From NCBI GenBank assembly GCA_009782015.1, contig WQUP01000179.1, positions 1 to 10,356 of the forward strand: a stretch of DNA of 10,356 nucleotides. Reading direction: 5' to 3'. Position numbers and translations under genes: made by a program. This stretch comes from Endomicrobiia bacterium (GTDB taxonomy: Bacteria; Elusimicrobiota; Endomicrobiia; Endomicrobiales; Endomicrobiaceae). The notes beneath the pieces were generated by a model. That model was not told where the DNA came from. It saw only the letters and a program-made list of their open reading frames with translations, and made no database searches. Positions 3-10,356 of this stretch are shown here, one piece after another (position 1 is the first letter of the stretch; every line of letters starts with the position of its first letter).

Positions 3-3000
3 AATGCCGATGACGACAAGTACAACTCCTTATTATATGTGTCCATGGACAGATACCCTGTTTTCCGGGATTACACCGAACTTCTTGAAACCGCTAAAAA
101 GATAGATTACAAAAAAGCCTCAGACGAGCTGATGCTGCTTGTCAGCCGGCTCAAAGATACGCTTCCGTACTCAAAATACAGCGAACTTTCCGCAAAAACC
201 GCTGGCTTTACAAACGTCGAAGAGCTGAGTTTCAGGCTTTCAAATCTTGCGGCGCAATATCCTATAAACGTAAACCCGCAAAGCGATCTGGCAAAACTCA
301 TGAAATACGTGAGCGCGGGCAGGCTGATAAATCCGCTTGAACTCATAACCGAAGAAAGAAGAATTACCGAAGATTTAAGAACGGCTTTCTCAAAAGACGC
401 TACAGAAACCGACATAGCTTTTCTCAACGATTTTTATTTCTACCTTGAGTCCTTCTTCAATACCAAAATTACCGCCGACGATTATGAATATTTCAAAAGC
501 GAGTACGGCCGCTTTGCTTCGGTTTATGCCAAATACGCTTACACCAACCACCTTGCCGGCCTTCAAAAAGATATAGATTTTATCAACGAGTACTATTCGG
601 TCAACGAAGACAGAAATAAAATCTTCATGGAAAAAATCAGCGGCGGCCTTGCCTCAAGCGGCCTTTCAGCCGGAGGCCTTGCCTCAAGCGGCCTTGCCGC
701 CGGCGGCATTGCCGCGGAAAATAACAAAGCCGGCAAGGCCGGCCTGGTTGTAGTCATAACCGGCGGCTTTCACAGCGGCGGCCTTAACAGACTTTTCAAG
801 CAAAACGGCATATCGTACGTAAGCATAATGCCCTCGGTAACCAAAGAAACCAAAACCGCGGAACTCAACTATGAAAAATACGTGCGCGGCGAAGCTCTCT
901 TTGACAGATTTACCGCCAGCGCCCCTGCCTCGTCGGCTCAGCCGTTGTTAAATTCCCCTTTTGTAAAAGAGCCTGCCCTGAGCGAAGGGACATCGTCCCG
1001 AAGTCGAATGGGGGTGGCCGGAGACAACGTCTCCGGACGGGGTATCTCCGTTTCCAACCCCGTACAAAATTCCTCCGGACAAAATTCCCTAGCTCTAGGC
1101 CTAGCATCCCAAGCCGGCAGCGCAGAAATAGCCCAAATGATGATTCAATACGCCTCAAAGAAATTGAAAGAGAGCGGTCTTGAGTACAACAAAGAAAACA
1201 TTGCTTTTTTGATCGAAATGATAAGAGAGATGACCGGCGACACGATCGGAGAAAAAGATATAAAGTATACCGATTCTGATACTTACATAAAACTTTCCAA
1301 CGGCTTTGAAATAAAACTTATTAAAAATAAGAAAGGCAAAATAGAAAATTCAACTAATGTAACGGTAAATGCCGAGGCGATTGAAACCAATAAGGCAAAA
1401 TTTACATCCGAGTCGGCCGTACGCGCCGCCGTTGCAGCGGCAGAAGCCGCATCTAAGTACGATATTATATTTAATCCGCGCGTTTCTGAAATCGTAGAGA
1501 ATTTTATGCTGTTAGCCGCGAAAAATGAATTGGTAAGCGGCAACGGCCTAGTCTTCAACATTCAGACGGATCCTTCCTTCCGCGAAGCAATCAGCAAAGA
1601 CGAAGAGTTTATCGCAAGAATTCCGGATAATGTGCAGGACTCAAAATATTTAGCATATGAAAGAGATTCCGCGGCAAACTCGGAAGAAAGGATTCTTGCC
1701 CGCATCTTTTTGGCCTCATATTACGCTTTAGGATACGATAAAGCGGTGTTGGGAAAAGTTATACCGCAAAATGAAGACATGCTTTCCGACATACCGGAAC
1801 TTTCAAATTTTTCAAAACCCGCAAACACAGACGCAATTATCGAACAGTTACGCGCGGACGTGAATGAAGATAAAAAAGCGTCAATTGTTTTTGTTTGCAT
1901 CGGAAATTTTAACAGAAGCGCCGCAGCCGACGTTTTATTCAAGCAGTTTTTAAGAGATAACGGCAAAAAGAATATAGATGTTTTTTCAGCGGGTATAAAG
2001 AGAGGCTATAAGGGCCGGGAGTTGTCGCACAAACTTAAAAATATTTTGCAGGAAACCGGAAAAGTCGACGATGATATATTAGACGGGTTTCGTTCCGAAC
2101 GCATCAGGGATCTTTTATATGAACTAAAGAAAGATAATAAAGTTCCCGATTATATAGTAACCGTCAGCGAAGAACAAAGGCAGTTTTTATTGAGACTTGC
2201 CGGAAAATCGGGAATTAACCTGAATATTGTTTTGTTCAGCGAGCTTTCACCCGGACTGCCGGAGTTGGCAGACGGACGTATGCCTGATCCTGCGGCGCAA
2301 GAAATCAGCCCGCGCGGCTTAATCGATCTTATAGATAAAATTTTTGCAGAAAATTTTACATCCAATGAAAAGCCGGCCGCCGCGCAGCAAAGCGAAAAAA
2401 CGGTCGTTACGGAAGAACAGGAAGAGCACTCGTTTACGGAAGACGTAAGCGTCGGAGAGAACGTTTCTTACAGCGTAAAGGGAAGCATAGAAGAAGAAAG
2501 AAGCCTTGAAGGAATAGATCCTGCGATAATCGAAAAAGCAAGAAAAGCGACTTTTAAGCTTTTTTTATCCGCTTTTCCCGAAGAACCCAGAGTAACGGCT
2601 TCATTGGTAGAGTTTGATATCGGCGTCGAAAAACGTAAATATCTGATGGCCGCCTATCACACCGTCAGATTGCCGATAGAAAATAATGAGGACGTGCAGT
2701 TTTTAGATAAAAATGGAAATAAAATTTCGACGAAAGTTGTTTTGCACTCTCAATCTTTGGATGTAGCTTTTCTTGAAGTTCCGGAAGAGATAAACGATGT
2801 GGAGCCGTTAAAGGTAAGTCTTTCTCCGGCGGCAAAAGGAGAGAGACTTTTTTATTTAGGATACCCGTCCAATCAGGAAGTAATGAGCGGGGGATATGTG
2901 CAGGATGAAGACGGGTACAAAGGAATACTTACGACTCTCGCCATCGGAGATATTGACACCGGAGGGACTTGCGGCGCGGCCATACTTAACATGAAAGGCG

Positions 3001-6000
3001 AAGTTATAGGTATAAGAAGAAACCGCACAAAAAATGAAACTTTGGCAAAGCTTCTGAATGTTAGCGCCGACGAATTTTTTGGCTGCGAAGCTCCGATAAA
3101 CACGATGATTGAGTTTCTTAAAGATCAAGACAGCGCCAGAGGCATTTATTTTGAAAGCGAAGGAAAGAAAGTTAAAGTTTTTGACATGTCTTACGGTGAA
3201 AATATAACTAACACGGAATATTCTTACACGACCGGAGCAGGAATATTGCAAGAAGTAAATCCGGCAGCCGTTGAGAAAAGAAAAGGGCTTACGGTTTACG
3301 GCAATATGGGCGGCGTTTCGCGTTTCTTCAAAGATCCCGCATACAAAACAGGGGAGATCGTACTTACCATACAAGACCGCAACGGCAGCACAAGAACAGT
3401 AACCATAAAAACGGAAGGCAAAAAAGTAGTATCGGTAAATGAAACGAAAACCGAAGACCTCATAATCCAAAGGCTTAAAGCGTCCGGTATCGAAAGATTC
3501 GATATAAGCATGTTTGAGGAATACAATCCGGCAGGGCATAAAATTGCGGAAAACGCGCAAAAAGCGGCGCTTGCCGCAATCGGGAATAATAATGTTTTAG
3601 CGATTACTTTTAAGCGGGAAGCCGGAGAAACTTCTGAGCGGTATTACGAAAGAATCATGAGAAGCATAGAGGATTTTGCGGAAGCTGTCGAAACCGGATC
3701 CCCAAGTTTAAAGAACGGAAAATGGTTTAGCGTAAGAGAATTTTTGACGGACGCTTTTTCCCACGGCAATAATCTTGACGGCGAAAGATACGCCTACATT
3801 CACATAGCCGACGCAAAGCGCAAAGTTACCGTTATAAACGAATATCGCGGAGATTTTGATGAAGAAACCGAGGAAGCCAAACTCGCTAAAGAAGCCGGAA
3901 TTTTCGGCAAAGGAATGGGAAGAGAGTATCTTAAGACATTTGGAGAACTTTCCTACGGTATTGAATCTTTGTCAAAGGGAAAATCAATCTTTGAAAGTGT
4001 TTACGTAATCGGAGATATGTTTCCGCGGTTTAAAAGATTCTCAAATAAAGTTCCAAAGCCTGAGCTTGATAAAACAGCGGCTCCCCAAGCGGTAAAAGAA
4101 AATTTAAGCAAAGCGCCTACGGAAGACCTAATAGTTCAAAGTCTTTCCGATAATAAACTCGAGCTTCCTTGGGCCGGACGCTTTGCTGATTGGCTGCATC
4201 TAAAAGCCGACGGCAGCGCGCTGCAAAAGATTTTGAGAGCCGCAGTTGTTTCCATATCGGAATTTTTTCATTCTTTAGCGCCTTACTTTTTTGTCAAAAT
4301 GCACGGCCCGATGTCAAAAAAATCGTTTATCTCAAGAACGATAGGGCATGCTTTTATACTTGCGGCTACGGCAGCGGGAATAACGCTGGCAATATATCTG
4401 CATTTGGCGTTCCCCGCCGCGTTCTTTTTAACTCTGGCTTTAAATGTCGCAACTCACACAATTTACAATCTTTCCGTGCCTGAAGACAAACGGCTGGAAC
4501 TTGGTCAAAATGAAGCGGCTTTCAATATAGACGCGGATTACCTCAGAGATCTGCTCAGGGAACTTGAAAAGAATGACAGGGCGCTTTACATTAAAGTCGT
4601 AAGGCTTATGGGTTCGGCAATGAACGGCAGTTCTGTTTATGTTGACGGAAATTTAAACGAACTAAGCGACAACACCGAAGTCGCAATTTTATGGGACAGC
4701 AAAGGATACTCAAGAATTACTCCTCAGAGAATCGAAGAGTATGCAAAATCTGTGGGCAATGAAAGCAAGAATACTCTTGTTTCTTTGATAAAAGCTTCCG
4801 AAACCGGCGCTACGAAAGAAACGCCTTCCGAAGTTTTTAAAAAACTTAAGTCTGAGGCTCCTATTATAACAGGCAAAGAAATCGAGAACTCAATCGCGGC
4901 GCTTGAGCAGAAACTTATAGGCCTCGGCATAAAAAATATCCCTGAGTTTGCCGTACGCTCGCTTCCGCAAAAATATTATAAAACCAATCAAAACGATCCC
5001 TACGGCACGGAAATATCCGAAAAAGGCATAGACGCCGCGGCCACAGAAGCTTTCATGGTAGGCATTGATCCGAAAGGTTTTGCGGAGGATATGGAATTTG
5101 AAATGAATTGGGACATAGCGTCCGTTTACGGTCCCGACATAAACAATATGTTTGTCAAAATGCTTAAAAATACGTTCCTTGCGCTTGTGTTCGGCACGGA
5201 AGTAAATTATGCGGATATTTCTTTGAAAGACACTCCGGTTTTTATAGCTTTCAACAAAGGAGATTATCTTGTAAATATTCTTTACGAGGCTGACTCGAAA
5301 ACAAAATACTCTCTTTCGGATATTTCAGCGATAAATATAACCGACAAAGAAAAAATAAGAAGATGGTATTCCCAAGCCAAAGGGTCAACCGAAAACGGCG
5401 AAATGTTTGCGGTCAAGCTTTCACAGGCCGAACTTGAAATGCTCATCCGTTCGGTTGACAGGTTTATAGAAAACGAACTTTTCCCGTATCTGAAGTCCAG
5501 AAATTTGATTCTCGACCGCGATTACTATTTTAAAATAGCGTTTCCAAGATACATCAACAACTATCTGTACATGAAGTACCTTGAAAAGCTTGTTGAAAAT
5601 ACGGAAAAAAATATCCGCGATGCCGAAAGTTTAGGAAATAGCGCAGGCGGCAAGTTCGGATTTGGCAACAAACAAATTAATATGGAGATTCTTAAAAATG
5701 CGCTGATGCGTCTTAAGAAAATCGATGACACCTATTACATGCAGGCTAAAGACCTTGTTGCGAAGGTTATTTACAACGATGCTTCGTATAATTGGGAAAA
5801 AGAGAAGAAAAATAATATATTTTTTGAACTACTTACTCCGAAAAATATACGAGACACAGCTAAAGCTTACGGCATTTACGATATAAATATTGTCAATTTG
5901 GTTGCAGAACTTGCGGAATTGGCAAAATCTTCCGGAAAAATGTCGGAAGACGAGATATTTTCAAAGTTTGAGCGAGCCAAAGGCGAATCGAAGATCTTTC

Positions 6001-9000
6001 GCGGCGTATATATGGGAATTGACAAAAACGGCAATATGCGTTTCGATACGGAAGAAGAGCGTCTGCGATATATGGAAAGTATTGCAAGGGAGTTTAAATT
6101 TTGGCAGCCGGAATATGATGAAACCGAAATAAACTGGATGCGCGCTCAGCTTGATGCCCGCGCGAGAGGGGAAGAAGTATTGACGCATGAGATGAAAGAG
6201 GCGCGCGAGACGTTGGCGTTGGAAAGCGCTCCTGCTTTCAACAGTAAGATAGGATTTGCAAAAGAAAATGCCATAAAGAAGGCATTTGGTGAAGTTTATA
6301 CAAGTTATATAAGAATGCCCCTTCCGTACAATGCCGAGTTGCGCATGTATAAACGCAAAGAATACACAGATAAAAGGACAGAGTATTTTGCCGTTGAAAT
6401 AGTAGATAAAGCCGACGGCAAGTCGCTTATCGACGAAAAAAACGATGCCAATAAATCATATATTTACGCCGAAGGCGTAAAGCACGAGCTTAGCTTGTAC
6501 CATTTTGCGAAAGAGATTGTCCCAAATGCCATAGATGCGGCTTTCAGGAAGCATACGGAAAAATTATTGATACAGGCTCAGTTTGATCTTTCGTTGGCTG
6601 CGAGTCTTGCCGAGAGATTCGGTTCAAAAGGCAGCGGCAGCACAACTGCGATGATTCTTCCCGAAAATATAATGCCGAAAATTAACGATGCCGGACTTGA
6701 ATTAAAATGGTCTTCGCGCCTTGCTGACAGGATCGTTTTAAAATCAGACGGTAATTTAGCGCAAATGATATTGAGAGCTGTTTTCATTGCCGTTGTAGAA
6801 TCTCCCGTTTCGATTTTGCCGTATTTATTCGCGAGAATGCATTACGGCCGCGCCGGGCCGGCGGAATCTCAAAAAAGCGATTTCCGTTCGAGACTTTTTG
6901 GGAATTTTTTAATAATATTTTTTACCTTATCCGGAGCTGCAATATCAATAGCTTTCTCGCTTCAGGGACCGCTGTCGTTTATCCTGCCTCTCATGTTAAA
7001 CATCACAACACATGCCGTATATAATTTCTACGTTTATAAAAAAGCGCAATCGGAAGCCGCTCAATCAGCCGCAAATAAAAAGCGCGAGCAAGATCTTGTT
7101 TTCGGAGAAAGAATCAATAATTCTTTAAAGGCAAGAATGAAGAGATATGACGATTTGCTTTTGAAGAAGGAAGATTTCATTGAAAAATTTGCCATTAGCG
7201 GCGCGGAATTCGATAAAGTTAGCAACATTATAAGCGGGAAAAATAAAAAAACAGCTGCAGAGTTCCTGCGAAAATCTAACAATATAAATGCCGGACTTTT
7301 TGTGTTTTTTCATTTCGCGGACGATAGCGATTTTCTGCAGCAAATTTTAGAAGAAAACAATATCGATATCAGAATAAGATTGTATGCTTACGCGAAAGCG
7401 AAAAGCGAAGGAATATCCGTTTCAAAAACTTCATTCGACGGCATTGCATCGCAAGTAAGCGGCTTAATAAAATCCAAAATGATTGCGGCGAAAGACGGCT
7501 CTAATGAAGCCGAGATTAACGCTTTTTTAGAAGATGAATTGTTCAGGGATGAAATATTTGCAAGTTATCATGCCGCCGTGCTTCTCAATCTGTTAAAAGT
7601 ACGGCCCGATAAACAAGCAAATGATTCGCTTTTTAACGATTTGCTTAAAACCAGGATTTCAAAAGCGTATTCAAGGCCGGGTTGCGACGATTTTATTTAC
7701 GGGGAATCCTCTTTAAAAGATAATAAGAGTTTTGCGAATACGGCGGCGCATGAATTCGGGCATAAACTTCTGCATATGCTCGGTTTTCGCGTTCATGAAG
7801 GAACGTCTCTGCTCAGGTGGAGATTTGCCGGAATCATTCATGAATTTTACTCCGAATTGACCGCGGGCATTCTTATGAATGAAAATGGTTTCGGAGAAGG
7901 CTATTTAAAATCAAAAACATCCAGAAGGTTTAATGAATTAAAATTTCAGAATGAATATGAAAACTACAGCACGAAAGAGAACAATCCTCATCTCGGCGGA
8001 TATTCGCTGCTTCACATGTTTGACGGTCTTTTGGATTTGTCAAAACAAGAGAATGCCGTAAATCTTTCAAAAGCCGCGGAAAATACGGCAAATGATTTTG
8101 CGTCCGCCAATAAGATAAATTCATTCGGAATTTATGATTATACCTTGCGCCTGATAGAAGAATACGGCAGAATTTCCGGCTTAGACGTGTCAAAAACAAT
8201 AAAATGGCTGAAAGAAAACCGTCCTAAACGCATAAACAATCCTTATTTGCTTATATTCCCGAAAATCGATGAGATTCCCGAAAACTATAAACCTGAGCTT
8301 AAAAAAGCCGGACATCAGGCTGAAAGTGCCGAGGTATCTGCGGCAAAAACTAAGAAGTTCGGGTTTCTTGGAAAATTTTTCGGAAAACCACTTGCGATAA
8401 TGGCGGTACTTTATGTCGCCGTTTCGTCTGTAATGCCGGCGTTCGGGTATAACTTTGTCAATGACAGCGTATTTAACGTTGTAAACAAAAATATTCAGCA
8501 GGGCAGGCATTCGGCATTTGCTCCAAAGCAAGATCCCTGGGGTACATTTTATCAGGAGGAAAAGCACAAAACAGAAGTTGAGATTGTGAAAAACTTCAAG
8601 CTTCTTGATGAAAAAGAATTATTCGGCAAATCCGAAGCGAGATATTACGAGATGATGAGCTTTGCCGAAACAGGCGAATTTGAAAAACTGACAGACATAT
8701 TTAACAACGATAAAGATATAAATTACAGATTATTCGCGGCGCTGCAGCTTAAGAGCAAAGGAAGAAACGTAAATATTGGCCAAATAACAAAAGATTTTCT
8801 TGAGCTTGAAAGAACAAATCCCAAAAGAAAAGTATCCAATGATTTTGAACTGCGTTCGAATATAGCCGGAGTTTACTTCGTTTTGATGTCTGCAATGAAC
8901 GGAGTTCCCGGCTTTGAGGAGTTTGCAAACAATGAAAATATCTATAACTTGATCAACAAGGCGGTTTACGCGCGTATTCAGGGCGGTTTCGCGGCATACG

Positions 9001-10356
9001 CAACGCAGACATATAAATCTTTTACGGCATCTACTGCCGCCCACGAATTATTTCATGATATTCTGGAACAATTAGGATTTTTGTATCCCGACGATTTGCA
9101 TACGATTTATCATGAATTTTTCGGCCCTCAAGGCGAGAAAATATATGAGTTTTCGGTGTCCGGCGCTAAATATAAATTGATACGGATTTCAGATAACAAA
9201 AATATTAAGTATAAAGCTTATAAACCCGCGGCAAAACTTTTAAATTCTGTGCAAGCCGGCCTTATGGCTCTGGAGTCCGAATACGGCGTTGATATTGATA
9301 TCAGAATTATACCCGAGATATCTTTGTATGCCGTAAACAACAATCTTGTCGATGATGATTTTATAAACATAGCCAAAGGCACTCCGGGATTTTTTAAAGT
9401 TTTAGCGCAGAAAATAGAAGAGAAGTACGCAATAAAAGCCGAAGATGCGATTTTAATATTTGGAAACGTTTTCGCAGACGCGAGAAAGGACAAGCGCGGC
9501 GATCGATTCTTTGAAAAATACTGGAACGCGTGGAAAAAGAATCAGCGCGGGACAGATAAAGCATTACAAACGGGCAAAGGCGCAGTTAACGAGACAGCCG
9601 GCGGCAGCGCGCCGGCGATGATTCTTCCGGAAAATATGGCTATGGTTGATAAAATGATAGCCGAAGGAAAGTCTGCCGTCAGAATTCTGCTTAAGATAGC
9701 CGGAATTGAATTTTGGGATTCGCTTAAAGATAATTTTGCCGAAAGGCATTTTTTCGATAGATACGGGAACGCAAAAAACTTGAGCGAGGCCGATAAAGAT
9801 AAATATAGAAAAACCGCCGAGTATATGCGGATAGGAACGCTTGCCGGAATGTTTGTTGCCGGCGCGGTGAGTTTTGCATTCGGACTGCCGGGCATTTTTT
9901 CGTTTGAACTTTTGACTATCGCGCTTAATCTTTCCGTTGCGGCAATCGGCGCTTTTGCCGGAAATGCGGCCGTTCATATTTTAGCGGATTACAGAATCGT
10001 AAAAGAGAAGATAAATCTGGCAAAGGCCGAGAAGTATGCGATAGAGAAAAAAGGCGGCGACATAGTAGCGCCCGTGATGATAGTAAACGAAGAGCCGGGA
10101 AATCCACGTGATTTCGGTTTTAAAAACACTTCGTTAAAGATCGGCGGACAAAGCGTCTGGATAAGCTCGAAATCTAAATCGCTTGTGATATTTGCAAAAG
10201 GAGCGTCTTTTGCCGATATAGAAAACGCTGCAAAGCAGGAAAATTCTCAAATTCAAAGACAGCTCTCTGAAGCGATAAAAAAGCAGACGGGCATTTCGCT
10301 TAACTCCTCTAAACTCGCAATAGACTGGATAAACGTCGATACTGCGTCGGATTCTT
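3..10356 (+). CDS. Giant multidomain membrane protein, interior fragment (both ends outside the window)
   Basis: One uninterrupted frame runs through the window; I read all 3,451 codons from base 3 and met no stop. Neither a start codon nor a terminator can be assigned, so the full protein is longer. Domains in order are: helical GGFH domain (residues 1-301), LMW tyrosine phosphatase (624-785), Cys-type trypsin-fold protease (837-1042), GHKL-like ATPase (1150-1346), membrane module 1 (1386-1492), unrecognised region (1493-2213), membrane module 2 (2232-2346), HEXXH protease A (2347-2780), signal-like segment (2782-2816), HEXXH protease B (2817-3198), membrane module 3 (3213-3330). Repeated modules indicate growth by internal duplication. 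Conserved motifs hold one register from start to end, which argues against frameshifts or a pseudogene. The overall role is unknown. A membrane-anchored, self-processing or proteolytic giant is an inference. Existence of the ORF is near certain; function is not. Confidence 0.93.
642..716 (+). repeat. In-frame 30-bp tandem repeat encoding GGLASSGLxA
   Basis: Two units, 642-671 (GGLASSGLSA) and 672-701 (GGLASSGLAA), are followed by a partial third, GGIAA. The 21-base core ggccttgcctcaagcggcct(t) is identical at 645-665 and 675-695, exactly 30 bases apart, so the frame is kept whatever the copy number. The product is a flexible small-residue linker just upstream of the GGFH strand. Recent slippage expansion is likely; copy number could vary between strains. 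Confidence 0.8.
689..741 (+). repeat. 11-bp perfect inverted repeat inside the coding sequence
   Basis: The arm cggccttgccg at 689-699 is the exact reverse complement of cggcaaggccg at 731-741, with a 31-base spacer. The left arm overlaps the tandem repeat. It could form a GC-rich hairpin in the message. Because gccggc and ggcctt words are common here, chance from composition is a fair alternative, and no T-run follows to suggest a terminator. Confidence 0.4.
943..1107 (+). repeat. Palindrome-rich element read through in frame (probable inserted dispersed repeat)
   Basis: Hairpins are packed end to end: ccct/aggg at 976-989; gggac-atc-gtccc at 987-999; ccggagac-aac-gtctccgg at 1018-1036 (8-bp perfect stem, 3-base loop); acggggt at 1037-1043 pairing with accccgt at 1057-1063; and the perfect palindrome ctaggcctag at 1095-1104. 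The words cctgccctgagcgaaggg and gaagtcgaa resemble a dispersed palindromic repeat I remember from many environmental bacterial genomes (type ccctgagcgaagtcgaaggg). Codons here (ggg, cga, ccc, tcc, cta) differ from the rest of the gene. The translation is a Ser/Pro/Gly/Asn-rich linker, roughly residues 314-369. The words aaattcc (950-956) and acaaaattcc (1064-1073, 1079-1088) sit near its edges; they might be boundary repeats. Exact ends are uncertain. Confidence 0.6.
1110..1871 (+). other. Unrecognised region between repeat insert and phosphatase
   Basis: Residues 370-623 match no family I can name. The first part (about 374-415) looks helical and acidic. Next comes a short strand-rich piece around DTYIKLSNGFEIKLIKNKKG (423-442), then an Ala-rich helix SAVRAAVAAAEAASKY (about 464-479). 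The rest is mixed alpha/beta and leads into a charged linker just before the phosphatase. There is no membrane segment and no cysteine pattern. It could be a spacer or a domain too diverged to see by eye. Confidence 0.4.
1872..2357 (+). other. Low-molecular-weight protein tyrosine phosphatase / ArsC-like domain
   Basis: A strand SIVFVC runs into the P-loop C-I-G-N-F-N-R-S, an exact CX5R(S/T) signature with Cys632, Arg638 and Ser639. It is followed by an acidic residue in the helix, as in the family pattern VCxGNxxRSxxAE. The conserved general-acid Asp-Pro appears as MPDPAAQE with Asp762, 130 residues after the Cys; LMW phosphatases have it roughly 115-120 after. VFSAGI and YIVTVSEEQRQFLLRL match the usual central strands and helices. 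Length, about 160 residues, is right for the family. LMW phosphatases remove phosphate from tyrosine, and relatives reduce arsenate. With catalytic residues present, activity is plausible. Fusion into a giant protein is unusual, because family members are normally stand-alone. The substrate is unknown. Confidence 0.85.
2511..3128 (+). other. Trypsin/HtrA-fold protease domain with cysteine at the nucleophile position
   Basis: The layout is that of a chymotrypsin-like protease. AAYHTVRLP carries His886 (compare TNYHVV in HtrA), SLDVAFLEVPE carries Asp920 (compare DLAVLKV), and GGTCGAAILNMKGEVIGI carries Cys990 where HtrA has GNSGGPLxNxxGxVIGI. Spacings of 34 and 70 residues are close to those of DegP (about 30 and 75) and of picornaviral 3C proteases. 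The Ser-to-Cys change gives the GxCG signature of viral 3C/3C-like enzymes. A His-Asp-Cys triad is therefore complete on paper. The next two residues are Ala-Ala instead of Gly-Pro, so the active-site loop is altered and inactivity is possible. It follows the phosphatase after an acidic linker of about 50 residues. Cutting of the parent chain is an inference. Confidence 0.78.
3129..3449 (+). other. Probable beta-rich segment after the protease
   Basis: Residues 1043-1149 contain alternating hydrophobic stretches (KVKVFDMSY, EIVLTIQDRNG, TRTVTIKTEGKKVVSV) that read as beta strands with tight turns. HtrA proteases carry PDZ domains at this position, but I cannot find a convincing PDZ carboxylate-binding loop, so that is only a possibility. 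No catalytic motif is visible. Confidence 0.35.
3450..4040 (+). other. GHKL / RsbW-like ATPase domain, degenerate
   Basis: The segment EFLTDAFSHGNNLD (residues 1246-1259, His1254) aligns with the N-box of anti-sigma-factor type histidine-kinase-like ATPases (E-A-L-x-N-A-x-x-H-G-N). The Glu is kept, but the magnesium-binding Asn is replaced by Asp1250. A strand pair YAYIHIADAKRKVTVINEY follows, with Asn-Glu-Tyr where the D-x-G-x-G box is expected. Then GKGMGREYLKTF (1302-1313) matches the glycine-rich GxGxG lid before the last helix. GHKL domains bind ATP in kinases, Hsp90 and MutL. Here two of three boxes are changed, so ATP binding is doubtful and a protein-interaction role is possible. The HGNNLD form resembles, from memory, a domain of Omnitrophota giant proteins. 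A short motif TEDLIIQRL (1150-1158) at its start recurs as TEDLIVQSL at 1373-1381. Confidence 0.5.
4158..4478 (+). repeat. Membrane module, copy 1
   Basis: Residues 1386-1492 begin LELPWAGRFADWLHLKADG, continue through QKILRAAVVSISEFF and LAPYFFVKMH, and end with two hydrophobic stretches. The first, AFILAATAAGITLAIYLHLA, starts at residue 1450. The second, FFLTLALNVATHTIYNL, follows directly. Copy 2 at 6696 shares LELxWxxRxADxxxLKxDG, QxILRA, LxPYxFxxMH and LNxxTHxxYN in the same order, so the two are clearly homologous. At least two, perhaps three, membrane passes are expected. Soluble catalytic domains lie upstream, so this probably anchors the chain in the inner membrane. Topology cannot be decided by eye. 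Confidence 0.75.
4479..6641 (+). other. Unrecognised 721-residue region between membrane modules 1 and 2
   Basis: Residues 1493-2213 contain no membrane segment and no motif I can assign. The first part is a charged helix (DADYLRDLLRELEKND) followed by MGSAMNGSSVYVDGNLNEL and a strand TEVAILWDSKGY. The middle (about 1670-1900) has long helices and aromatic-rich stretches such as YYFKIAFPRYINNYLYMKYL. A Gly/Phe loop NSAGGKFGFGNKQ lies near 1880. The later part is highly charged and helical (EEERLRYMESIAREFKFW, EEVLTHEMKEARETLALE). The end (about 2100-2165) has strands around TEYFAVEIVDKADGKSL and then a helix with SLYHFAKEIVPNAID. It may hold two or three domains. HTEKLL, SLYHF and LTHEM are not HEXXH motifs. 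Confidence 0.4.
6642..6674 (+). repeat. AMILPEN linker, copy A
   Basis: GSTTAMILPENIM follows a Gly/Ser run and sits just before membrane module 2. The DNA gcgatgattcttcc-gaaaatat at 6648-6671 matches copy B at 9615-9638 in 22 of 24 bases. Conservation at both DNA and protein level, ahead of two different membrane modules, suggests a recently copied junction. Confidence 0.65.
6696..7040 (+). repeat. Membrane module, copy 2
   Basis: Residues 2232-2346 repeat copy 1: LELKWSSRLADRIVLKSDG, QMILRAVFIAVV, SILPYLFARMH, then FLIIFFTLSGAAISIAFS and LSFILPLMLNITTHAVYNF. The hydrophobic segments are more strongly apolar here than in copy 1, and three passes are plausible. A basic, Ala-rich stretch (YKKAQSEAAQSAANKKREQ) follows, as expected for a cytoplasmic-side exit under the positive-inside rule, though this is only suggestive. 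The AMILPEN linker precedes it, and metalloprotease unit A follows. Confidence 0.75.
7041..8340 (+). other. Zinc metalloprotease-like unit A (HEFGH) with helical N-terminal part
   Basis: A helical stretch (residues 2347-2560) includes DFLQQILEENNIDIRIRLYAYAKAKSEG, which resembles a HEAT-like helix pair. TAAHEFGHKLLHMLGF then gives a perfect HEXXH zinc-binding motif (His2583, Glu2584, His2587). Downstream, GIIHEFYSELTAGIL offers Glu2614 or Glu2618 as the third ligand, 27-31 residues after the second His, in the style of gluzincin peptidases. Unit B repeats the pattern: helix pair, TAAHExxHxxLxxLGF, then xHEF. After the motif the chain is helical and soluble (GGYSLLHMFDGLLD and beyond). A peptidase that binds zinc through HEXXH and a Glu is expected. 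The family is not identified and the substrate is unknown. Confidence 0.7.
8346..8450 (+). other. Internal signal-peptide-like or single membrane segment
   Basis: Residues 2782-2816 have a Lys-rich start (KTKKFGFLGKFFGK), a hydrophobic core PLAIMAVLYVAVSSVMPAFG (2796-2815) and a small-residue end, then a polar stretch starting YNFVND. That is the layout of a secretory signal, placed 2,780 residues into the visible chain and exactly between protease units A and B. It may act as one membrane pass that puts unit B on the other side, or be a relic of an ancestral secreted protein fused into the giant gene. No start codon with a ribosome binding site was found here. Confidence 0.6.
8451..9596 (+). 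other. Zinc metalloprotease-like unit B (HELFH) with helical N-terminal part
   Basis: Residues 2817-3198. EFEKLTDIFNNDKDINYRLFAALQLKSKG (from residue 2892) matches the helix pair of unit A at 2443. TAAHELFHDILEQLGF carries HEXXH (His3014, Glu3015, His3018). TIYHEFFG supplies Glu3038, 20 residues after the second His, which is the spacing seen in thermolysin-type gluzincins. Distances from helix pair to HEXXH are about 122 residues here and 140 in unit A. The units therefore look like diverged duplicates. After the motif, strands such as EFSVSGAKYKLIRIS and VDIDIRIIPEISLYAV differ from unit A. Catalytic residues are present in both copies, so both may be active. Confidence 0.7.
9597..9638 (+). 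repeat. AMILPEN linker, copy B
   Basis: AGGSAPAMILPENM again follows a Gly/Ser/Ala run and precedes a membrane module. Nearly the same DNA as copy A, about 2.97 kb upstream; the difference in phase is a whole number of codons. Confidence 0.65.
9639..9992 (+). repeat. Membrane module, copy 3 (diverged)
   Basis: Residues 3213-3330. An amphipathic start (SAVRILLKIAGIEFWDSLKDNF) and a charged loop are followed by hydrophobic stretches IGTLAGMFVAGAVSFAFGLPGI and LLTIALNLSVAAIGAFAGNAAVHIL, with at least two passes. Only scattered matches to copies 1 and 2 remain (RILLKIA for the ILRA region, ALNLSVA for LALNVAT). The shared position after AMILPEN supports relationship, but independent origin cannot be excluded by eye. 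Confidence 0.5.
9993..10356 (+). other. Soluble tail of the fragment, unrecognised
   Basis: After membrane module 3 a basic helix (VKEKINLAKAEKYAIEKK) leads to short strands (IVAPVMIVNEEPGN, SLKIGGQSVWISSKSKSLVIFAKG) and an amphipathic helix IENAAKQENSQIQRQLSEAI. No motif is recognised. The frame is still open at the window edge, so a domain is cut here. Confidence 0.4.

Follow-up and report, generated by a model that had tools for sequence, protein, structure and literature searches.

Can a stretch of bacterial DNA of more than 10 kb belong to one protein, and what would such a protein do? The question is raised by contig WQUP01000179.1 (assembly GCA_009782015.1; here C179) of an Endomicrobiia bacterium, for which a preliminary description, made from the DNA letters, reported one giant gene with neither end visible. 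The contig, 10,356 nt and referred to here in its full length as the window, belongs to a metagenome-assembled genome (MAG) of 1.58 Mb in 290 contigs that is 71% complete. We find that the window is the interior of a gene of about 4,136 codons, and propose, with the chances evenly balanced, that it encodes a chain exported by Sec, having a head of the TIKI/erythromycin esterase (Ere) type, conserved ends and an interior of changing cassettes.

A single open reading frame fills the window

The gene interior occupies one frame of the forward strand:

3..10355, + strand: gene interior, 3,451 codons (frame analysis)

The third forward frame contains no stop codon over this interval, and the other five frames contain 106–236 stops each, their longest open stretch being 246 codons. 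Given the base composition of the window, the probability that 3,451 codons in a row lack a stop is approximately 10^-99. Guanine-plus-cytosine (GC) content at third codon positions is 0.39–0.47 along the frame, the exception being the first 300 codons (0.54), and GC by codon position resembles that of three other large open reading frames (ORFs) of the genome (third position 0.40–0.45). A single gene thus fills the window as previously described, and the window being the entire contig, neither end of the gene lies within it. None of the RNA families searched in the window reaches its gathering score.

Separate genes could have been merged into one frame by assembly or fusion errors, a possibility favoured by the fragmented, 71% complete state of the MAG and by a signal-peptide-like segment located inside the chain (8346..8447). 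Opposed to this are the improbability of the stop-free run combined with similar codon-position GC throughout, the existence of orthologues in separate genomes of the genus as single open frames of 4,625 and 4,975 codons, and a 14-nt overlap which carries the frame into the next contig. In addition, ORFs without interruption in other genomes, both of the genus and of the wider family, contain modules of the window in frame, an argument against a hidden frameshift or a chimeric join. We regard an artefact as very improbable.

The gene ends lie on two other contigs

Extension of the contig in both directions, a check proposed in the preliminary description, placed the gene ends on contigs C170 and C156:

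C170:9896-10606: upstream part, 237 codons, with a predicted signal peptide
C156:14-1333: downstream part, 440 codons, then a stop

The final 14 bases of the window are the first 14 of C156 with the frame kept, the sole overlap of at least 8 among 840 oriented end pairs, a comparison covering 15 of the 290 contigs. Residues 2–444 of the C156 frame match residues 4539–4975 of orthologue L064 at 40% identity, and the window's own match to L064 stops at residue 4541, where the C156 match takes over. Upstream, the 237 codons at the end of C170, opening MKKLLSIFTLCCFLISVIGTDIARA, match residues 15–233 of orthologue L066 (51% identity), and window residue 3 aligns to L066 residue 244. The gap between C170 and the window is about 8 codons, the frames agreeing if it is a multiple of three. 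The complete gene measures about 12.4 kb, or about 4,136 codons (237 + 8 + 3,451 + 440), below both the 20-kb limit used for 'giant' ORFs (PMC10066038) and the 5,000-amino-acid limit used for 'huge' proteins (PMC11573180).

The N-terminal module carries an invariant predicted active site

The window begins within the N-terminal module:

3..902, + strand: C-terminal part of the N-terminal TIKI/Ere-like module, residues 1–300 (alignments A1 and A3, orthologue model and fold comparison)
642..707, + strand: in-frame tandem repeat (15 bp, GGLASSGLSAGGLASSGLAAGG), located in a linker flanked by the conserved Arg and GGFH

The conserved Arg (residue 204) and GGFH (254–257) lie in the window. The first half of the module lies on C170 and reads IQDLH...VEGG; of the active-site residues, the window row of the alignment includes the Arg and the last His only. 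The TIKI/Ere/ChaN superfamily has a catalytic set of two His and two Glu together with a conserved basic residue (PMC6254334, PMC7979712). A corresponding set is present throughout alignment A3, which leaves out four of 40 loci (L109, L115, L118 and L120): Asp or Glu in 36/36 rows, His in 36/36, Glu in 36/36, Arg in 37/37 and the last His in 37/37. The first acid is Asp in 33 rows and Glu in three, and the Arg-to-His spacing is 28 or 29 in 21 of the 37 rows. In the VIA-align output, rows beyond the first five were taken as background.

The module resembles the superfamily in the acid-His-Glu-Arg-His set, with identical His-to-Glu spacing, and may resemble it in its predicted fold, which in solved members is a parallel beta-sheet core flanked by helices. 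It differs in that a long helical segment is inserted after the Glu and before the Arg, in having Asp for the first Glu in 33 of 36 rows, and in being fused to a giant chain with predicted export. From the residue pattern and, more tentatively, the modelled fold, we predict that it is a TIKI/erythromycin-esterase-type hydrolase. The helical part also matches Pfam DUF1722 near the cut-off in L064 (residues 202–276) and L066 (residues 168–248). MARTX-type chains (PMC6254334) are similarly single secreted chains with several effector domains, one of them TIKI-type, a likeness which we take as an analogy of design only.

Within its own genome, the module has 13 matches on 12 other contigs; the window gene is one of many such genes there that share it. 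A scan of named genomes with the module gave the 40 loci, distributed over the same genus, further Endomicrobiaceae, other Elusimicrobia, Omnitrophota and one record titled only 'bacterium'. Those of the same genus include Candidatus Endomicrobium neocapritermitis, Endomicrobia bacterium Th196P4bin33 and Endomicrobium sp. Gx485_bin123. The N-terminal module is the hallmark of a large giant-protein family that spans Elusimicrobiota and Omnitrophota, and the same design seems common to many giant genes of both phyla. An origin of the window in Omnitrophota, which the preliminary description mentioned as encoding giants, is not supported, as the same-genus genomes behind its best matches are Endomicrobium or Endomicrobia MAGs; the window's genome is placed in Endomicrobiaceae, phylum Elusimicrobiota.

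Enzyme-like domains of the interior

Behind the N-terminal module, the following soluble regions are distinguished:

1110..1802, + strand: second conserved module, residues 370–600, following the N-terminal module in both orthologues too
1821..2396, + strand: low-molecular-weight phosphotyrosine phosphatase module, residues 607–798 (Pfam, PDB matches, family alignment)
2550..3182, + strand: trypsin-like protease domain, residues 850–1060 (Pfam PF13365, alignment to solved serine proteases)
3462..4022, + strand: module with an N-box-like motif, residues 1154–1340
4662..5642, + strand: soluble module, residues 1554–1880, homologous in G005 (37% identity)
5640..6650, + strand: soluble module, residues 1880–2216, homologous in G001 (29% identity)
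7194..8375, + strand: HExxH module 1, residues 2398–2791 (alignment A5)
8490..9482, + strand: HExxH module 2, residues 2830–3160, with HELFH at 3014–3018

The preliminary description had named a phosphatase, protease-like domains and a GHKL-like domain, and had recommended a profile search, which in Pfam recovered the phosphatase and a trypsin-like protease and gave no support for the GHKL and HExxH assignments. The phosphatase is matched by LMWPc (PF01451) over residues 628–768 (E 5e-7; 30.4 bits, cut-off 23.2), with a P-loop CIGNFNRS at 632–639 and MPDP at 760–763. Profile, Cys-x5-Arg loop and late Asp-Pro acid are those expected of a low-molecular-weight protein tyrosine phosphatase, which the module is predicted to be. 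Across six copies in the family, the Cys-x5-Arg loop is kept in five and the Asp-Pro in four. The copy in L053 (residues 1322–1494 of a 1,654-codon ORF) has no catalytic Cys loop, and intact copies occur in the same genome.

These active sites bear on whether the enzyme-like domains function as enzymes. The product could instead be a surface adhesin or coat chain binding other cells, a role already put forward in the literature for giant Omnitrophota ORFs, its enzyme-like domains serving as binding scaffolds only. The predicted signal peptide, membrane segments and length would suit such a chain, giant ORFs with adhesion domains are described in Omnitrophia (PMC10066038), and the catalytic Cys is lost in one of the six phosphatase copies. 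However, Pfam reveals no adhesion domain in the window or in nine scanned siblings, the N-terminal active-site set is invariant in the aligned rows and five of the six phosphatase copies keep their loop. Kept active sites speak against a mere scaffold, which would not need them, and we consider an adhesin unlikely.

The trypsin-like domain is matched by Trypsin_2 (PF13365) over residues 876–1004 (E 9e-11), the domain alone scoring 47.6 bits against a cut-off of 27.6. His 886 and Asp 920 are present, and Cys 990 (within 2961–2981) replaces the nucleophilic Ser. Cys nucleophiles are known in 3C-like proteases. At E ≤0.001, the 75 further family genomes yielded no relatives of the domain. The other two protease-like domains are recognised by the HExxH motif only, with no Pfam match that passes a cut-off. 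A zinc metallopeptidase of the gluzincin type would combine HExxH with a third ligand and a zincin fold. Module 1 contains HEFGH at 2583–2587 and a conserved Glu at 2614, and HExxH and the downstream Glu are invariant in the three proteins aligned (A5). Identification of the domain by structure was dropped, the model being poor (predicted local distance difference test score 62) and its matches meaningless, with no fold match at E ≤0.001. Modules 1 and 2 are probably a diverged duplicate pair, the sequence evidence being mixed: pairwise BLAST gives E 8e-5 with composition correction off, and the whole-sequence profile score of 7.2 exceeds the best of 500 shuffles (4.9), but the best single-domain score of 4.5 is under the best shuffle's 5.4.

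The GHKL assignment is weak. Residues 1150–1380 have no Pfam match, GHKL or other, at E up to 10, and the N-box-like motif is variable and only partly kept in orthologues; the motif weakly suggests that a degenerate GHKL fold is possible. The second conserved module (residues 370–600) likewise has no Pfam match.

Shared ends and a reordered interior

Conservation resumes at the far end of the window:

9975..10355, + strand: start of the conserved C-terminal region, which continues on C156 and ends ...ESLLSAA

Modules one and two and the C-terminal region are common to the window and L064; between these the order of modules has changed. In the window the phosphatase (607–798) precedes the module at 1888–2220, whereas in L064 the order is reversed, with the phosphatase (2053–2242) after that module (1327–1655). 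Both rearranged matches are strong (E 5e-70 and 8e-18). The module at 1615–1831 also switches side of 1888–2220 in L064, on a weak match (E 6e-4). With L066 the window has in common the N-terminal and second modules, the N-box module, one membrane hairpin and the C-terminal region.

The chains also share their last residues. Among 30 Endomicrobiaceae loci, each of the ten ORFs that possess the N-terminal module and whose stop is visible terminates in two Ala/Ser residues, compared with 9 of 98 other ORFs of at least 150 codons; six of these nine are open at the 5' end, one being the C156 frame of the present gene. Across the Elusimicrobia and Omnitrophota loci, the tail is not a general feature. 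That [A/S][A/S] might act as an SsrA-like degron is an idea only. In a transfer-messenger RNA match of one relative (L149:1501-1901), one frame reads ...FMPIAA followed by a stop, resembling the Ala-Ala tails of the giant chains, and ARAGORN gives a different tag.

Pfam scans of nine sibling proteins (E up to 0.001) detected PPDK_N in three, PEP-utilizers in two (one below cut-off), and phosphomannomutase domains, RamC_N, LPD3 and LMWPc in one each; two had no match.

Membrane hairpins, internal signal segment and linkers

Membrane modules had also been predicted, and these are present as three copies of one family:

4131..4484, + strand: membrane hairpin, copy 1
6651..7037, + strand: membrane hairpin, copy 2
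9600..9962, + strand: membrane hairpin, copy 3, degenerate
8346..8447, + strand: internal signal-peptide-like segment, residues 2782–2815 (by eye), preceding HExxH module 2
951..1049, + strand: in-frame copy, within an inter-domain linker, of a composite palindromic repeat that occurs dispersed through the genome

The hairpin module was found in 15 of 247 genomes. Siblings carry membrane modules of another type, five of six of which match PF02517, three above cut-off. Rce1-like (CPBP) proteins have the motifs EExxxR, FxxxH and HxxxN. Two of the window hairpins scanned alone gave no Rce1-like match, and profile comparison between the window hairpins and the siblings' Rce1-like modules gave 37% probability, around an HxxYN motif; these sequences do no more than suggest that the two types are related. 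A Skillet-type lipocone (PMC12419801) was also considered as a possible identity of the membrane modules.

Stretches similar to the internal signal-peptide-like segment are visible by eye in L064, L066, L067 and L050. The palindromic repeat recurs on C133 (83 bp at 97.6% identity), with shorter pieces at 15 more places in the genome (E up to 1). Translations resembling it are seen by eye in linkers of the siblings L056, L059 and L061, and a literature search for a palindromic element in Endomicrobium was without result. The linker MILPEN was considered as a general cleavage site and rejected: in the ORFs scanned it occurs twice in the window, and L023 has a single ILPEN.

Neighbouring genes and the comparison with polyvalent proteins

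The gene is flanked by members of its own family. On C170 it is preceded on the same strand by a same-family open frame of 2,783 codons, and on C156 it is followed, again on the same strand, by another family frame of at least 921 codons. Elsewhere in the loci, C33 carries a 5'-open frame with an Ala-Ala tail and then a family start, and C188 a 5'-open frame with an Ala-Ala tail, a 209-codon ORF and then a family start; judged by their tails, both 5'-open frames are putative family members.

This neighbourhood bears on a further explanation, that the product is a multi-effector chain which is delivered to a second cell and split into units by its own peptidases, with a mobile element as its carrier or source. 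Many enzyme domains per chain, embedded peptidases and mosaic rearrangement are features of the polyvalent proteins known from phages and conjugative elements (PMC5512222), one domain described there, LPD3, occurs in one orthologue, and among PHROGs profiles there are matches to the protease domain at E 1.7e-8 and, of lesser strength, to the phosphatase at E 1.4e-4. The present gene differs in its predicted export by a signal peptide, and the N-termini of aligned members whose start is visible look signal-peptide-like or hydrophobic by eye. Moreover, members occur on 12 other contigs of the same genome, both neighbours belong to the family, and the stretches seen contain no adjacent gene of phage or conjugation type. 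In the portion of PMC5512222 available, the main text does not contain 'signal peptide', 'elusimicrobi' or 'omnitroph'. This explanation appears quite unlikely.

Proposed mechanism

The proposed Sec-exported chain would cross the inner membrane by means of the signal peptide predicted on C170, and the hairpins would anchor it in the envelope. Its enzymes may then act outside the cytoplasm, on material of other cells or of the surroundings. By analogy with polyvalent proteins, in which a peptidase in a multi-effector chain cuts the chain into units (PMC5512222), the embedded peptidases may cut the chain into working pieces. Weighing against this mechanism is the occurrence of PPDK_N, PEP-utilizing or phosphomannomutase domains, usually cytoplasmic, in the exported-looking L099, L066, L054 and L052.

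More tentatively, and as a doubtful extension, Elusimicrobiota and Omnitrophota may share a previously undescribed class of Sec-exported polyproteins, having a TIKI-type head, a conserved C-terminal end and recombining enzyme cassettes that are cut into separate effectors after export. Such polyproteins would include the [A/S][A/S] tail in Endomicrobiaceae and cassettes some of which bring their own hairpin or internal signal peptide.

Relation to known giant genes, distribution and significance

The giant genes of a related group, the Omnitrophota (Seymour et al. 2023, PMC10066038), likewise consist of one very long ORF with membrane helices; they are described as poorly conserved and as having few annotated domains, and relatives of the N-terminal module occur in that phylum. 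The window gene differs in belonging to Elusimicrobiota and in lying under the 20-kb limit, and the shared N-terminal hydrolase-like module, shared ends and reordered interior were not encountered in the portion of that paper available. Our literature search found no account of the N-terminal module or of giant proteins of Endomicrobia; the giant-gene preprint of West-Roberts et al., which was not covered, may describe parts. The accessible portion of PMC11257099 does not mention 'giant', 'secret' or 'effector'. Giant Omnitrophota ORFs are already known, and what appears new here is the variant in Endomicrobia with the shared N-terminal module.

Members of Endomicrobiaceae have been recorded in termite guts, rumen and digesters (PMC11257099). 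The module is present in 12 of 41 genomes of the small-genome genus and in 28 of 35 of the other family genera, relatedness being uncorrected, and in 6 of 14 versus 18 of 20 at a completeness of at least 90%; the comparison assumes that the 247 genomes searched include all 76 of the family, a few of which may have escaped the search. Judged by the genome sizes in PMC11257099, the small-genome genus is probably Endomicrobiellum, endosymbionts of flagellates. The module is thus rarer in the probable endosymbiont genus, which would fit a role outside the host cell. The shared N-terminal module with its invariant predicted active site provides a handle for finding, counting and testing such genes, and the kept ends around an exchangeable interior suggest how giant genes diversify.
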